Positions 37,178 through 47,994 of a stretch of DNA of 64,000 nt are shown here, one piece after another. Under the pieces are notes generated by a model. The model was not told the DNA's origin. It saw only the letters and a program-made list of their open reading frames with translations, and made no database searches. Each line of letters begins with the position of its first letter. Position 1 is the stretch's first letter. This stretch comes from Thermotoga sp. Ku-13t (GTDB lineage: Bacteria > Thermotogota > Thermotogae > Thermotogales > DSM-5069). The position numbers and the translations under genes were made by a program. The stretch spans positions 248,001 to 312,000 of the forward strand of contig NZ_LNFY01000001.1 of the NCBI RefSeq assembly GCF_011057685.1, given 5' to 3'.

Positions 37178-38121
37178 ATGTGGTGGTACGTTTTGCCATC
37201 AGTATTTCTGGGCTGGTCACTGGGTGCAAACGATGCGGCGAACGTTTTTGGCCCGACCGTGGCTTCCGGTTTGATTCCGCATAGGAGAGCTATGATCGCA
37301 GGTTCGTTTTTCGTCGTGATCGGCGCTCTGGTGGGAGGTTCACACGGCCTTCTGAACGTTTCCAACATCACCACCGGTGTCGCTCTCGACAGCGCCATCG
37401 CGGTCCTATCGGCAGCCATAACGGTGACCGTGATGACCTTTTTCAAATTTCCTGTGTCGACGTCCCAGGCGGTCTTTGGAGGCATCCTTGGTACGAACGT
37501 GTTCAGGTTCGGTTTTGAAAACATCAACTGGTCTCCGATGACGAAATTCGTCATCGTCTGGCTGTTGACACCCGCGGGTGCAGCACTGATAGGGTTTCTA
37601 CTGTACGAGGTTCTTGCCACGCTTTTCAGGAGAATTCGATCCGTTCAGTACCAAGACAGATTCATAAAGATCAGTTCCTGGCTGATTGGTTTGTACGGTT
37701 GTTACGCACTCGGTGCGAACAACGTTGCAAATGTGACGGGCGCTCTGTCTGGAAACCTCCTGAGTGTGAATGAGGCTGCGTTGCTCGGAGGTCTGAGCAT
37801 TGCATCTGGAATGATCAGTTTCAGCAAAGGCGTGATAAAGACGGTGGGAAAAGGCATAGTGGCGTTGGATCATTTCTCCGGCATGATTGCAGTTCTAGCG
37901 CATTCAATCACGCTGTGGATTTACAGTCTCGTTGGAATACCGGTATCATCCTCGCAGGCAATCGTTGGAGCGGTCATAGGTCTGGGATACGCCAGGGGTG
38001 TAAAACTGTCAAATCCAGACTCGTGATGAACATCGTACTCGTCTGGGTCATGACGCCCTTCATAGCTGCGATCGTTTCTTACCTTCTCACGACGGCAGTA
38101 AAGTTCTTCTTGAATTCATGA
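37178..38121 (+). CDS. PiT-family inorganic phosphate permease, frameshifted near its end
   Basis: A low-affinity phosphate/cation symporter. Both halves carry the PiT signature: 'GANDAANVFGPTVASG' at residue 17 and 'GANNVANVTGALSG' near 183. The first frame stops at 38026 after 'GLGYARGVK', 282 residues, just before the last membrane helix. In the next frame the normal end follows, 'TVKSRLVMNIVLVWVMTPFIAAI' and on to 38121 (described in pieces). One extra A in the AAAA run near 38010 would restore a 314-residue protein. A sequencing slip, slippage during expression or a recent mutation are all possible. The ATG follows AGGAGTG. Confidence 0.82.
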
Positions 38122-42187: not shown

Positions 42188-43153
42188 GTGAAGAAAGTAT
42201 TCATCGCTGTGATCGTTCTGGTCGCGGCTGCGCTTTTCGCACTCGATCTGAAACAGTTCGACATTAGAAACTTCAAGGGTGAATACCCACTGGTCAGTTT
42301 GAAAAGGTTTCTCGAAACACAAGAGTTCGTATCTGTTGAAGGTGTGGTCTACAATGCGAAAGCAGACAAGAAATTTCTAAGTGTGGAAGAAGCAAGCACG
42401 CTCAATTTGAGTGAAGACAGACTCGTGGGAATACTCGCGATCGATATCGATGAACTTTCCAGCTTCGATGGAAAGAACAAACCTGCTCTGGTAGCGGTGA
42501 ACGGCATCATCTACGATGTCTCGAACTCTAATCTCTGGCGCGGTGGCGTGCACCGTGGACGACACAACGCCGGCGAAGAGTTGACCTACGATATCGTGAA
42601 AGATTCTCCCCACGGGATTCGAAAGCTTCAGGGTTTCAGAACTTACGGTGTACTCGTTTTCACACTTGAGCAACTTTCGAAATTCACCCAGGGCACGAAA
42701 GCGAAACCTTACGTAGCGTTCTCAGGGGTTGTGTACGACGTGAAGGATAATCCTGCGTACGACAACAAGAACAGGATGCTCTATTCCTATTCGGTGGGTC
42801 AGGAATTAACCTACGAGCTGAGCAAACTCGAAAACGTTCAGACCAGCATGTCCAAGAGCTATCCCGTTGGTCTTCTAATTTTCGATGCGCAGACACTTTC
42901 CAGGTTCGATGGCACACAAGTGAGAGTGCTCAACGAAGAAACGTACAAATCCTTCATCATGGTTGCGGGGATCGTTTATGATGTGACCAACGTCCCAGAT
43001 TGGCGTGCGAAGTTGGACTTGGAAGACGATGCCGAGGCGGGAAAAGACTACACGGGTCAGTTCGAATGTGAACTTGAAGAATCCTGCGAGCACAAGCATG
43101 CAGATCCTAAGGTTTTGAAAGAATTTCTCCGCGTGGGGTTTGGTACACTGTGA
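42188..43153 (+). CDS. Exported protein with cytochrome-b5-like repeats
   Basis: A 321-residue protein with a signal peptide (residues 1-19, 'MKKVFIAVIVLVAAALFA') and three to four tandem copies of a cytochrome-b5-like heme/steroid-binding fold. The best copy reads 'IDELSSFDGKNKPALVAVNG' then 'IIYDVSNSNLWRGG' and 'VHRGRHNAGEELT' (residues about 90-145). Two later copies, 'LSKFTQGTKAKPYVAFSG' and 'LSRFDGTQ...VAGIVYDV', keep the fold motif but lack His. Only the first has the His pair that could hold heme. The gene overlaps a small b-cytochrome-like gene by 4 bases, so heme or another flat ligand and electron transfer outside the membrane are likely. Confidence 0.75.
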   Translation: MKKVFIAVIVLVAAALFALDLKQFDIRNFKGEYPLVSLKRFLETQEFVSVEGVVYNAKADKKFLSVEEASTLNLSEDRLVGILAIDIDELSSFDGKNKPALVAVNGIIYDVSNSNLWRGGVHRGRHNAGEELTYDIVKDSPHGIRKLQGFRTYGVLVFTLEQLSKFTQGTKAKPYVAFSGVVYDVKDNPAYDNKNRMLYSYSVGQELTYELSKLENVQTSMSKSYPVGLLIFDAQTLSRFDGTQVRVLNEETYKSFIMVAGIVYDVTNVPDWRAKLDLEDDAEAGKDYTGQFECELEESCEHKHADPKVLKEFLRVGFGTL

Positions 43154-43512
43154 GCTACAAGATCTTCGCCTGGATTAGTGTAGCGTTGCTGTTCTACAAT
43201 TTTTCTCTGTTCCCTTTGAGAAGGATATTGAAACGATTTGAACGTGCTCGCTCTTTTTTGAAGATCGGATCCAGAATTCACAGATTCACCGGTTTCGCGT
43301 TGCTCGTCACCGGTGCGGTGCATGGGTATCTGGCACTTGGACGGATCCAGATTCACACCGGAACAATTCTGTGGTTCGGCGTGGTCATACTTTTCACTTA
43401 CTATTTGCTGAGAAAGTCTTTGAAAAGGTACTGGCTGGTTCTTCACAGGTTCACCGATTTCATTGTGATCGCGTGGTTTTTCGTTCACTTTTTCTTTCCG
43501 TGGTTGATATGA
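43150..43512 (+). CDS. Small four-helix membrane protein, di-heme b-cytochrome pattern
   Basis: A 120-residue membrane protein with four helices (about 5-23, 45-63, 72-88, 98-118). Helix 2 reads 'HRFTGFALLVTGAVH' and helix 4 'HRFTDFIVIAWFFVH'. In both, two His are exactly 13 residues apart (H44/H58 and H99/H113) and follow the same HRFT-x-F start, so the protein looks like an internal duplication. Such paired His on facing helices are how b-type cytochromes of the ferric reductase and b561 types hold two stacked hemes. The GTG start at 43150 overlaps the previous stop. It would pass electrons across the membrane to or from the b5-like protein (inference). Confidence 0.7.
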   Translation: MSYKIFAWISVALLFYNFSLFPLRRILKRFERARSFLKIGSRIHRFTGFALLVTGAVHGYLALGRIQIHTGTILWFGVVILFTYYLLRKSLKRYWLVLHRFTDFIVIAWFFVHFFFPWLI

Positions 43513-43524
43513 GGAGGTGAAAGT

Positions 43525-43977
43525 ATGCTGCCGCTTGGATCTGTGGCACCCGACTTCAGTTTGAAAGACCAACATGAAAACACGATACAACTTTCGAATT
43601 TGAAAGGTAGAAAAGTGCTTCTATCTTTTCATCCACTCGCGTGGACGAGCGTGTGCTCAGAGCAGATGAAATCGCTCGAGGCGGCATACGATCAGTTTGA
43701 AGCTATGAACGTCCTGCCGCTGGGTGTAAGCGTTGATCCTGTTCCCAGCAAGAAAGCCTGGGCCGAAGCGCTGGGATTGAAGAAGTTGCATATACTCTCG
43801 GACTTCTGGCCCCACGGGGAAGTGGCCAGAGCCTTCGGTATATTCAGAGAGCAGGACGGTTTTTCCGAGAGAGCGAACGTACTCATCGACGAACAGGGTA
43901 AGATTGTGTGGATCAAAGTGTATCCAATCGGACAGTTACCCGATATCAACGAAATCTTAGATTTTCTGAAAGCCTGA
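43525..43977 (+). CDS. Peroxiredoxin (AhpE/BCP-like)
   Basis: A 150-residue thioredoxin-fold peroxidase. The N-terminus 'LPLGSVAPDFSLKDQHENTI' and the active site 'HPLAWTSVCSEQMKSLE' (peroxidatic Cys48) are typical; no second conserved Cys is visible close by, so it would be of the 1-Cys or atypical kind. It starts 12 bases after the b-cytochrome-like gene behind GAGGAGG, so the three genes form one operon. A link between membrane electron flow and peroxide removal is suggested by this context. Confidence 0.85.
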   Translation: MLPLGSVAPDFSLKDQHENTIQLSNLKGRKVLLSFHPLAWTSVCSEQMKSLEAAYDQFEAMNVLPLGVSVDPVPSKKAWAEALGLKKLHILSDFWPHGEVARAFGIFREQDGFSERANVLIDEQGKIVWIKVYPIGQLPDINEILDFLKA

Positions 43978-44035: not shown

Positions 44036-44719
44036 TCATTCTCTGGACCGCATGATTTTTTTCAACTGCTCTCCGGTCTGCATGAAGTAAAGCTTTTCAC
44101 AGATGTTCGTCAGATGGTCCGCGATCCTCTCGAGGTGCCTTATCAGGAAAGCTTCTTCGAGGTAGATTCTCATCATCCTCGGGTTCGTTTCATGACACGC
44201 CAACTCGATGAGGTTCTCGTGTCCTTCGTTGTGCAGTCTGTCCACATCGTCATCCTTCTGCCAGACTTTGATCGCAAGTTCGAGGTCTCTGTTCTTCACA
44301 GCCTCCACCGTCTGCTGCAACATCGTGTTTATGATCCTGACCATGTCGTTGAGTGTTTCCCAGCTCGTAAAGCTTTCCAGACTCCTCTGAACGTGCCTGC
44401 TGAGCTGGGCAATGTTGACACACTCGTCCGCGATCCTTTCCAGATCTATCGAAAGACCTATCATCGCGACGACGAACCTGAGGTCTTCCGCCAGTGGCTG
44501 GAATTTTGCGATCACGTCGAACGCGGTGGACTGGATCGTCAGATCGAGTTCGTCGAAGTAATCGTCCATTTCCTCTATTTCTCTTATGGTCTTTTCGTCG
44601 CTGGACTGAACCGCGTAGAGAGTCCTCTCAAAGAGTTCCTCCACTCCGTTCACGAATTCCATCAGCTTCGCGTTCAGGAAGTTCATCTCTCTTTCGTAGT
44701 GCAGGGTTCTTTCCGTCAT
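44036..44719 (-). CDS. phoU: Phosphate regulon protein PhoU
   Basis: A 227-residue all-helical protein with two PhoU repeats, each with the metal-binding E(/D)xxxD pattern: 'EIEEMDDYFDELDLTIQ' and 'DLERIADECVNIAQL' in the first, 'DDDVDRLHNEGHENLIEL' and 'HLERIADHLTNICEKLYF' in the second. PhoU links the Pst transporter to the PhoR kinase and damps both. It follows pstB by 12 bases and closes the pstSCAB-phoU operon. Confidence 0.92.
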   Translation of the reverse strand: MTERTLHYEREMNFLNAKLMEFVNGVEELFERTLYAVQSSDEKTIREIEEMDDYFDELDLTIQSTAFDVIAKFQPLAEDLRFVVAMIGLSIDLERIADECVNIAQLSRHVQRSLESFTSWETLNDMVRIINTMLQQTVEAVKNRDLELAIKVWQKDDDVDRLHNEGHENLIELACHETNPRMMRIYLEEAFLIRHLERIADHLTNICEKLYFMQTGEQLKKIMRSRE

Positions 44720-44731
44720 AACACTTCCTCC

Positions 44732-45487
44732 TCAACCTATTTTACCCGTCAGGAACTGTCTGGTCACCTCGTGTTTCGGTATTTTGGCGATGACTGATGT
44801 CTCGCCGTATTCTATCAAATTCCCTTCGTAGAGGAACACGACCTCGTCGCTGATTCTCAAAGCTTGTCCCATGCTGTGCGTGACTATGATCACTGTGTAT
44901 TGTTCGGCGAGCTCTTCAAGCAGTCTTTCGATCTTCGTGGTGGCGATGGGATCGAGCGCACTCGTGGGTTCATCGAGAAGCAACACTTCAGGTTCAACCG
45001 CCAGAGCCCTTGCGATGCAGAGTCTTTGCTGCTGGCCTCCGGAAAGTTGCACCGCAGGTTTTTTGAGCTTGTCTTTCACTTCGTCCCACAGCGCAGCCTT
45101 TCTCAGCGCTTCTTCAACCTTCTCTCTCAGTACACTTTTCTTCGTGATTCCGTGTATTCTGAGCCCATATGCGACGTTGTCGAAGACGGACATTGGGAAG
45201 GGGTTGGGTTTTTGAAAGACCATGGTCACCCTTCTTCTGTATTCTGTCAGATCGGAGATGCGGTATATGTCCTGCCCCCGAAACAGGATCTGTCCTTTCA
45301 GGGAGAAATCCGGAATCAGATCGTTGAGTCTGTTCAAACACCTGAGCAGTGTGCTTTTACCACAGCCGGATGGTCCCATGATCGCGGTTATTCGTCTGGA
45401 TTTTATCTTCAGATTTATGTTGTTCAAAACGCAATGATCGCCGTAGTAAGCGTAAAGATTCTTGATCTCAAAAACGACGTCACTCAC
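44732..45487 (-). CDS. pstB: Phosphate ABC transporter ATPase PstB
   Basis: The cytoplasmic ATPase of the high-affinity phosphate importer, 251 residues. It shows Walker A '[19 protein letters not shown]', signature '[16 protein letters not shown]', Walker B '[16 protein letters not shown]' and the H-loop 'IVTHSMGQA'. The 'RCLNRLNDL' after Walker A and '[21 protein letters not shown]' in the Q-loop region are specific to PstB. It overlaps pstA by 8 bases. Confidence 0.95.
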
Positions 45488-46304
45488 GTTGATTCCTCCT
45501 CATCAACTGGACGAAGAAATACACACCAATCGTGATCAGCACCATCAAACTCGCCATACCTTTGGCCATCCACTGAGACTCCTCCCCAAGGTTCATGACG
45601 ATCGCGTAGATACTGGTTGGAAGCGTCATGACTGGATCTGTTAGTTTGCTGGGAAGCTTTGTCGTATAGAAAACGGCTCCGGTAACCAAAATGGGCGCAG
45701 TCTCACTGAAGGCCCTGCCGAGCGTGAGGATCAAACTCGTCAGTACACCGTTTCTGCTCGCCCGGAGAACCATCAGTGTGGCTTGAAGTTTGCTTGCACC
45801 GAGTGCTATCACGCCTTCTCTCAGTTCCTTCGGTACGGCCCTGAGAAATTCCACCGCACTGTTCATGAAGAAGGGTATCGACATGGTTGAAAGTGTCAGC
45901 GATGCGGAGATCAGAGAAGTACCCAGCGAGAGTCTCACGCAGAAGAAAGAAAGCCCGAAGACACCGTAGACGATCGATGGGACGCTGTTCATTGTGGCTG
46001 CAAGGGATTGAAGAACCATGGACAGCTTCCTTGGTGCTATCTCGCTCAGGAATATGGTTCCTATCAATCCGATAGGGATCGAAACTGCGAACACAAGCAC
46101 CATGAGTGTGAGCGAACCGATCAACATCGGAAAGATTCCGCCTTCGCTCATCGCCCGCCTAGGCCATTGTGTGAAGAAGCCGGGTTTGAAAAAGTGCGGA
46201 AGACCTGACGCAACTATGATCGCGAGTGTGAGTACCGTGATCGCGAAAACGGTGTAGGTGATGATCCTGAGAGTCCATTGCAAGGCTATCACCCCTTGAC
46301 CCAT
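45480..46304 (-). CDS. pstA: Phosphate ABC transporter permease PstA
   Basis: A 274-residue permease with six helices and the PstA pattern '[14 protein letters not shown]'-type stretch (here [12 protein letters not shown]), and the coupling loop '[24 protein letters not shown]'. Together with PstC it forms the phosphate channel. It overlaps pstC by 16 bases and pstB by 8, so synthesis of the complex is coupled. Confidence 0.93.
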
Positions 46305-47161
46305 CGTTCGAGCCTTCTACAAATCACGTTTGTGAAAACGTTGAGAATTAGACAACCTGAGAGCACCAGCAGCGCGATGAAGAACAGGGCGCTGTAGTGA
46401 AGACTTCCCACGGCAACTTCACCGATCTCGCTACCCAGGGTCGCGGTGAGTGGTCTCACTGGATCCAGGAAAGATCTCACCAGCACGTTGGCACCACCTG
46501 CGACCATGAGCACGATCATCGTCTCACCGAAGATTCTGTTGAAAACGCCCAGCATCGCGTTCACTATGCCGGGTGCAGCGTATTTAAGTTCAACCCACAT
46601 CACGTGGACATCTTTCGCACCGAGTGCCACTGCTCCATCCACGATGTGACTTGGAACTTTCTCGAGAGATTGGAACGTGAGGCTTGTCATGAAGGGTAAC
46701 GTCAGAATCGACAGCACGATCGAAGCGTTCAAAAAATTCTGCGCCGTCCACGCTCCTGCCCTTAGAAGAAGATCGCCCAGAATCAGAACGCCGAAGAGTC
46801 CAAACACCACGGACGGAACACCACTCACATACTCTAATATTCTGAGTACGACCTGTTTCTCTCTGTCGCGCGCGTATTTGTGCAGATAAAGCGCCACGGT
46901 CAAACCAGCGATCCATACCCAAACGCTCGTCCAGACAGTCAAGATCAGCGAGTTCAGCAACATAGTCCTGACACCAAACTCCGGTTCAAGTTCCCAGACC
47001 GGATACCAGTTGGGTGAAAACAGCTTCCAACCAACCTCTCTGATGGCCCTGAGTGATTCTGTGAACATGAAGAACACTATCGCAAAAAGTGCTGCCGCTA
47101 CGAGAACGGCAGCCACACTGGTGAGAAGAACGAACATGAAAGATGCGACTCTTTTCATCAT
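46289..47161 (-). CDS. pstC: Phosphate ABC transporter permease PstC
   Basis: The partner permease, 290 residues with six helices. The family loop 'VSGVPSVVFGLFGVLILGD' and coupling region 'HIVDGAVALGAKDVHVMWVELKYAAPG' are clear. It overlaps pstS by 4 bases. The two Met codons at the start (47161 and 47158) are equally usable. Confidence 0.93.
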   Translation of the reverse strand: MMKRVASFMFVLLTSVAAVLVAAALFAIVFFMFTESLRAIREVGWKLFSPNWYPVWELEPEFGVRTMLLNSLILTVWTSVWVWIAGLTVALYLHKYARDREKQVVLRILEYVSGVPSVVFGLFGVLILGDLLLRAGAWTAQNFLNASIVLSILTLPFMTSLTFQSLEKVPSHIVDGAVALGAKDVHVMWVELKYAAPGIVNAMLGVFNRIFGETMIVLMVAGGANVLVRSFLDPVRPLTATLGSEIGEVAVGSLHYSALFFIALLVLSGCLILNVFTNVICRRLERWVKG

Positions 47162-47994
47162 TCATCCGTTCCGTAAGCAGGAACGAAGCCAGCCTGTTTG
47201 ACTATGCTCTGACCTTTCGGCGAGACGATGAACCTCAAGTAATCGCTCACGATGCCTTCCATCGGCCAGGTGTTGTTGAACCGGCTCAGATCAATGAACA
47301 CGAACAGAGGCCTGCTGATAGGATAAACTCCTTTGATGACGTTCTGAACGCTCGGTTCAACACCGTTTACTTTGAGTGCTTTCACTTTGCCTGTCACGTA
47401 ACCCATGCCCGTGTAAGCTATGGCGTACGGGTTCTTTGCGACGCTCTCGATTTCTGCCTGGCTCGATTCGAGCATCTGCACCCTTGGACTGAGCTTGGCA
47501 CCGTGGAGAATTTTTTCTGTGAAGGTTTCGAATGTTCCGCTTGCTGTATTCCTCGAATAGACAACGATCGCTCTTTTGGGAAGTTTTGGATCGACCTGGT
47601 TCCATTCTGTGATCTCGCCGGTGTAGATCTTCTTCAGCGTTTCGATGGATATATCGTCGATCGGGAGGCTTGGATGCACGATCACGGACAGCGCGTCGTA
47701 GGCAACGAGTATGGGCACGAAGTACCTACCGGCTTTGTGCATTTCCTCGATTTCGGACGGTTTGAGGAACCTGCTGGAGTTTGCGATGTCTGTCGTTTCG
47801 TTGAAGAGCGCCTTGATACCCGTAGTGGAACCGGCACCCTCGAGCGTGACGATCACATTGGGATACATCTTCTGAAACTCCTCAACCCAAAGCTGTGCGA
47901 TGGGATAAACCGTGTTCGAACCCTTGATCACGAGAGTTTGTCCGTACATCATTAGTGCGATGAAGACCAACACAAGTAAGAAGAACTTCTTCAT
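47158..47994 (-). CDS. pstS: Phosphate-binding protein PstS
   Basis: The periplasmic phosphate receptor, 278 residues with a signal peptide (1-18). The phosphate loop residues are in 'VIKGSNTVYPIAQLW' and 'LEGAGSTTGIKALFNETTDIANSSRFLK' (Ser, Thr, Gly and Asp), and 'VYSRNTASGTFETF' supplies the remaining Arg, Ser and Thr. It is first of the pst operon, divergent from phoB. A GAGGAGGTG site precedes the ATG. Confidence 0.93.
   Translation of the reverse strand: MKKFFLLVLVFIALMMYGQTLVIKGSNTVYPIAQLWVEEFQKMYPNVIVTLEGAGSTTGIKALFNETTDIANSSRFLKPSEIEEMHKAGRYFVPILVAYDALSVIVHPSLPIDDISIETLKKIYTGEITEWNQVDPKLPKRAIVVYSRNTASGTFETFTEKILHGAKLSPRVQMLESSQAEIESVAKNPYAIAYTGMGYVTGKVKALKVNGVEPSVQNVIKGVYPISRPLFVFIDLSRFNNTWPMEGIVSDYLRFIVSPKGQSIVKQAGFVPAYGTDE

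Follow-up and report, generated by a model that had tools for sequence, protein, structure and literature searches.

A conserved pair of an exported cytochrome-b5-like protein and a four-helix membrane protein in Thermotogota, a candidate heme-b electron conduit

Thermotogota are, to our knowledge, generally treated as fermenters without cytochromes. The window analyzed here (the whole stretch of DNA, 64,000 nucleotides) comes from a Thermotogota genome of 2.08 Mb (G000, 99.5% complete) and contains three co-directional open reading frames, of which the first two encode proteins with candidate heme ligands. What could such proteins do in such a host, and which of the three genes belong together? 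An earlier note on this DNA had read them as one operon, with electrons moving across the membrane in exchange with an outer b5-like carrier. The features at the locus are as follows (positions are those of the window).

42188-43153, + strand: b5-like gene, GTG start, 321 aa; exported cytochrome-b5-like protein (COG4892 / archaeal b5-domain type) with four b5-like repeats and one complete bis-His site
42188-42241, + strand: N-terminal signal peptide MKKVFIAVIVLVAAALFA, read directly from the sequence
42434-42667, + strand: sole b5 repeat with the full heme-ligand pattern GxH...PH; H122 (42551-42553) and H142 (42611-42613)
43067-43099, + strand: C-x5-C-x-H-x-H motif (C294, C300, H302, H304) in repeat 4, which is heme-less
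43150-43512, + strand: membrane protein gene, GTG start, 120 aa; small membrane protein of four helices, putatively a di-heme cytochrome b with a b561/STEAP/NOX/superoxide-oxidase-like fold
43279-43323, + strand: H44 and H58 in predicted helix 2, 14 residues apart, presumed inner and outer heme ligands
43444-43488, + strand: H99 and H113 in predicted helix 4, 14 residues apart, presumed inner and outer heme ligands
43525-43977, + strand: peroxiredoxin gene (AhpC-TSA), ATG start, 150 aa; single Cys, PxxxTxxC-like motif; outside the conserved unit

The three reading frames, their spacing, and the two bis-His pairs, all described in the earlier note, were confirmed on the sequence. The b5-like and membrane protein genes overlap by four bases (GTGA, 43150-43153), and the peroxiredoxin gene follows after a gap of 12 bases, with a strong ribosome site (gaggaggtgaaagt) ahead of its ATG and a Pfam match to AhpC-TSA (6e-34). 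Both flanks are on the opposite strand: a MATE-type transporter, named from sequence, is located upstream, and phoU and pst genes downstream. The latter form a minus-strand block beside the pair (phoU, pstB, pstA, pstC, and pstS, 44036-47994), and a PiT-type phosphate transporter is encoded at 37178-38026.

Relatives of the membrane protein were detected in 47 of the 103 Thermotogota genomes and homologues of the b5-like protein in 44. In most carriers the two genes are neighbors, and both orders occur: b5 precedes b561 in Fervidobacterium-like genomes and the window's family, and b561 comes first in Thermosipho-like and Marinitoga-like genomes; these "-like" genus labels were inferred, and the loci from Pseudothermotoga and Thermosipho MAGs (L061-L063) carry their own names. 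A genome scan with a tighter alignment returned seven loci. Only the window and its closest relative, G058, have the peroxiredoxin gene next to the pair. In nine of the other genomes of the family, its orthologues are either away from the pair or were not detected; the well-covered genomes do have them, at a distance from the pair. The peroxiredoxin is best read as a late neighbor, to be left out of the system. The three-gene operon was thus rejected as a unit, and what holds of the proposed gene order is its first part: the conserved unit is a two-gene pair of an exported b5-like repeat protein and a four-helix membrane protein.

The membrane protein was modeled with AlphaFold2 (pLDDT 86.5, 7 sequences) as four helices (residues 2-27, 31-63, 70-86, and 92-115), with the two bis-His pairs at two depths, as proposed before. 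H44, H58, H99, and H113 are invariant in all 58 homologues from two phyla (Thermotogota and Clostridia), a conservation far beyond chance. Loops 23-43 (8 K/R) and 88-96 (4 K/R) are positively charged and the other loops are not, and because of this K/R richness H44/H99 would lie, by the positive-inside rule, on the cytosolic side and H58/H113 on the outer side. The helix positions, as well as the fold matches, suggest that the His in each pair face each other. In VIA-align, the model matched superoxide oxidase 5oc0 (Z 10.8, rmsd 2.9, 115 residues aligned), STEAP1 (Z 10.0, rmsd 2.5, 114 residues aligned), NOX5 (Z 10.0), and cytochrome b6 (Z 9.7), and SpNOX was also among the best matches. Since de novo four-helix designs likewise reached Z 10, a value of about 10 appears to be within the range of helical bundles by common arrangement, and the fold match is best taken as supportive, not specific.

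Profile comparisons placed the membrane protein outside the families tested. Its profile had no match among the sequences of solved structures. Against prokaryotic cytochrome b561 (PF01292), the window protein scored 14.3 bits (E 0.036), below the gathering threshold of 30.1. It had no Pfam match to DUF4405 (PF14358) at E 1, and the homologues from L066 (18.7 bits) and from a Fervidobacterium-like genome (13.8) were both below the threshold of that family (26.7). MsrQ / ferric reductase (PF01794, 28 bits) was approached by the L066 homologue (22.5 bits, below the threshold) and not matched by the window protein. Of the DUF4405 traits, the four conserved His in membrane helices were found; six helices were not, the model having four.

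The exported protein was also borne out as b5-like, with its signal peptide and a match to Cyt-b5 (PF00173, 6e-11) of 42.6 bits, above the gathering cut-off of 23.7. A PF00173 profile search of the window's genome at E 0.001 gave no match, although the whole protein passes the cut-off; taken singly, the repeats give weak scores. The His pair is missing from three of the four window repeats. In the relatives, the first and last His of the GxH...PH pattern are present in every canonical repeat and the middle His is sometimes lost; because of this difference, H122 and H142 are the likely axial heme ligands. As in bis-His cytochromes b5, two conserved His thus occupy the presumed axial positions, at a spacing of 20; in classical b5 the spacing is longer. 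Compared with MAPR proteins (PGRMC1), it is His, not Tyr, that is conserved at these positions, and PGRMC1 (4x8y) was a weaker fold match. The window protein has a single canonical repeat; there are two in most members of its family and of the Fervidobacterium-like family, three in Mesotoga-like genomes, and four in most Marinitoga-like ones. The clostridial relatives are single-domain proteins and have a lipoprotein signal instead (lipobox in L066, L067, L106, L107, L111, L118, and L127). The C-x5-C-x-H-x-H motif, a possible metal site, is retained in most of the window's own family and absent in other families.

The closest solved structures are archaeal: 6nzx (Hadesarchaea) and 6vz6 (Methanococcoides burtonii) were matched in phmmer (4e-11 and 3e-8, respectively) and were the best fold matches in VIA-align (Z 9.0 and 9.2). 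The canonical window repeat aligns with both over the full length, including both His positions. These proteins are single domains of 78 residues, whereas the window protein has a signal peptide and four tandem repeats, three of them without the ligand pair.

The earlier claim that no system of this make-up has been described is half right. Besides the archaeal b5 structures, flavinylation-associated heme-b membrane cytochromes (MsrQ-like, PepSY-like, DUF4405, and FezC) were described in 2024, and heme b binding was demonstrated for DUF4405 and FezC (PMC11334425). These cytochromes have membrane helices with four conserved His, as here (PMC11334425, PMC8238504). They are encoded with FMN_bind/ApbE genes and have been proposed to deliver electrons to extracytosolic carriers (PMC11334425, PMC8238504); the clostridial homologues considered below are found in such clusters. 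DUF4405 and MsrQ-like proteins have six helices, whereas the protein here has four and is below every family cut-off tested, and in Thermotogota the outer partner is a heme protein in place of a flavoprotein. By analogy, the membrane protein may work like the DUF4405/MsrQ cytochromes, with the heme-b5 partner replacing the flavoprotein.

Other known systems resemble the pair in part. The transmembrane domains of E. coli superoxide oxidase (CybB, 5oc0), STEAP, and NOX have a similar helix arrangement, but the window protein is only 11-17% identical to them and has no NAD(P)H-binding domain. In CYB561-DOMON proteins, too, a heme b protein of the membrane is combined with a heme-b domain that is exported; in eukaryotes, the two are fused and ascorbate-driven. 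Here, in contrast, the genes are separate, the membrane protein has four helices, and b5 is the usual partner; a DOMON partner is absent from the window, and the membrane protein is paired with DOMON at two Halobacteroidaceae loci. The Rnf of Methanosarcina acetivorans has an extra outer multiheme cytochrome subunit (PMC12174285) and so represents an Rnf/Nqr-type complex passing electrons outward, as proposed below. That cytochrome is c-type, whereas the pair here consists of a small b-type membrane protein and b5 and is linked to Nqr/Rnf through its gene neighborhoods.

The new element is the company that the membrane protein keeps, namely nqr, rnf, and FMN_bind operons. Relatives were found in 24 of 391 Clostridia genomes; they are only 30-40% identical to the Thermotogota proteins, and therefore the roles may differ. 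At some clostridial loci, the membrane protein gene follows a b5 lipoprotein gene. The L135 operon reads nqrB-C-D-E-F-p150-b561 and has no nqrA; its last three genes are spaced 12-15 bases apart, and the operons in L134/L114 end in the same way. At four further loci, rnfC-D-G-E-A-B is followed by a seventh gene, in which this four-helix bis-His membrane domain is fused to FMN_bind. The positions of these operons are listed below.

L136, 2276-8070: clostridial rnf operon with b561::FMN_bind
L137, 4355-10146: clostridial rnf operon with b561::FMN_bind
L138, 6405-12162: clostridial rnf operon with b561::FMN_bind
L149, 6293-12000: clostridial rnf operon with b561::FMN_bind

A minimal relative of 116 residues is clustered with FMN_bind and ApbE-like genes (L144, 5749-7642; the same as L128, 1483-3313), an arrangement that resembles the published DUF4405 clusters. 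In the two Halobacteroidaceae MAGs, an exported DOMON gene adjoins the membrane protein gene on the opposite strand (L064, 5998-7005; L065, 5998-7001). Taken together, the gene neighborhoods suggest that the outer partner (b5, DOMON, or FMN_bind) is exchangeable and the membrane part constant, with Rnf/Nqr subunits as operon mates. All three partners are redox carriers expected on the outer face.

Within Thermotogota, the association is with Nqr. According to a 2014 survey, an nqr operon is absent from Thermotogae (PMC4014512). Fervidobacterium-like genomes have an nqrB-C-D-E-F operon that is either divergent from the pair or a few genes away from it, and the NqrF of this operon passes the curated cut-off; this synteny is probably one event. 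The pair genomes do not contain the complete NqrABCDEF: nqrA was found in none of the nqrBCDEF loci read (four families sampled), and the next gene encodes a conserved protein, p150, about 150 residues long. Examples of nqrB-C-D-E-F followed by p150 are L077 (1330-5726), L088 (4458-8756), L090 (4090-8343), L092 (4055-8380), and L096 (3725-8046). Many Thermotogota with nqrBCDEF but no nqrA have Rnf as well. Matches of the NQRA_N type were rejected as NqrA; they are weak (<36 bits), their coordinates place them beside Rnf copies and not NqrF, and they are best read as RnfC. An Nqr of this composition suggests an acceptor that need not be quinone.

Across the 103 Thermotogota genomes, NqrF was present in 38 of 43 carriers of the membrane protein and in 17 of 60 non-carriers (Fisher 7e-10), four weak b561 matches (E 0.001-0.01) being counted as absent. 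The association persisted when stratified by family (CMH p 1e-4, permutation 5e-5), kinship being handled by family strata only. The exceptions fall on both sides. The pair is intact and NqrF missing in the window genome, G058, and G094. Conversely, 17 genomes have NqrF but no membrane protein, and in G057 NqrF is present and the membrane protein gene broken. In line with the association, G064 and G070 have a broken membrane protein gene and no NqrF; assembly errors are possible, and G064 is a draft. In the window genome, an Rnf operon was read directly, and the electron donor there cannot be Nqr, since NqrF is absent.

Where would the heme come from? No ferrochelatase was found in any of the 103 Thermotogota genomes, the positive controls being detected, and HemB was found in only four of them and in none of the window's family. 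De novo heme synthesis in the host thus looks absent from the gene content, and the heme, if used, would be scavenged, as the earlier note had anticipated for a host that does not make it. The heme pathway of Thermotoga has been remarked to be incomplete (PMC10740692), and beyond that remark the literature search returned nothing specific on heme or b5 in Thermotogota. Two clostridial genomes that carry the pair, G105 and G106, possess HemB. Cytochrome bd oxidase was rejected as a general heme user, being confined to four genomes of one other genus (G008, G009, G010, and G011), which have it although HemB was not found there.

We consider it probable that the pair conducts electrons through the cytoplasmic membrane over a short path of b hemes, from an Rnf/Nqr-type flavoprotein to an outer carrier. 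This retains the transmembrane transfer of the earlier note as the best reading, now strengthened by the nqr, rnf, and FMN_bind operons. The membrane protein would bind one heme near the cytosol (H44/H99) and a second near the outside (H58/H113), both between helices 2 and 4. The likeliest electron source would be an Rnf/Nqr-type membrane flavoprotein complex, NqrA-less NqrBCDEF where present, and in the window genome the donor is assumed to be Rnf or another complex. Electrons would cross from the inner to the outer heme and be exchanged, on the outer side, with the b5-like protein, in which every canonical repeat (a single one in the window protein, as many as four in relatives) would bind one bis-His heme. 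From there they would pass to an external acceptor, for which Fe(III), sulfur compounds, and oxygen are guesses, and the heme would be taken from the surroundings.

Other uses of the same proteins were weighed against the conduit. The membrane protein might be a superoxide oxidase or an oxygen-scavenging cytochrome at the outer face, with b5 as an electron buffer and the peroxiredoxin removing peroxide. The best structural match is to 5oc0, the peroxiredoxin is directly downstream in two genomes, and thiol peroxidase-like genes are found near nqr in L095 and L096. STEAP1, NOX5, and cytochrome b6, however, are within about 1 Z of 5oc0, which makes the match unspecific, and the peroxiredoxin shows no link to the pair in the other members of the family. 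The Nqr/Rnf/FMN_bind operons favor electron export, and a quinone acceptor, as used by superoxide oxidase, is not established in these bacteria; we regard this role as unlikely. Heme capture, in which the exported repeats (up to four sites) would bind environmental heme and pass it to the membrane protein for import or insertion, would suit a family with no HemB in a phylum where ferrochelatase was not found, and the tandem heme-domain repeats seem to be laid out like heme-harvesting proteins. The clostridial carriers with HemB argue against it, as do the single repeat able to bind heme in the window, the small size of four helices for a transporter, and the FMN_bind fusion and nqr/rnf placement, which suit electron transfer, not heme transfer. 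It appears quite unlikely.

Bis-His conduits can run both ways, and electrons might instead flow inward from external donors via b5, or the conduit might feed a periplasmic repair enzyme of the MsrP type or disulfide reduction. MsrQ, a six-helix member of the FRD family, feeds such a repair enzyme. When 28 stretches were compared by neighbor clustering, no repair or thiol-redox gene recurred beside the pair, and we give this reading little credence. Least probable of all, and by our estimate very improbable, is that the Thermotogota proteins have lost heme binding and persist as structural remnants or with another ligand. The host without heme synthesis, the three window repeats without a His pair, and the broken membrane protein genes in G057, G064, and G070 would fit. 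Yet the four His of the membrane protein, as well as the two His of one b5 repeat, are conserved in lineages without heme synthesis, which demonstrates continued selection.

The conduit can be extended, as a tentative proposal that we hold to be rather doubtful, to a quinone-independent sodium-pumping chain in Thermotogota. NqrBCDEF without NqrA would oxidize NADH and pass electrons through the di-heme b protein and a multi-heme b5 wire, built with scavenged heme, to external acceptors, and in the window genome the conduit would be coupled to Rnf. For the window, the link to Nqr without NqrA is the least certain part. A heme-b conduit would be a concrete candidate for the means by which many Thermotogota reduce Fe(III), sulfur, or oxygen. 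As it would be present in nearly half of the genomes, half of a supposedly cytochrome-free phylum may use cytochromes, and its presence in organisms unable to make heme predicts dependence on heme from neighbors.

Further redox genes were observed around the pair and the nqr operons. In a Thermosipho MAG, KorAB-like 2-oxoacid:ferredoxin oxidoreductase genes directly precede the b561-b5 pair (L063, 3408-7145), and in L096 (196-7576) KorAB-like genes precede a peroxiredoxin-like gene and nqrBCDEF. In a Pseudothermotoga MAG (L062, 6643-8888), the pair is followed, after about 280 bases, by NfnAB-like genes, and L071 is alike.
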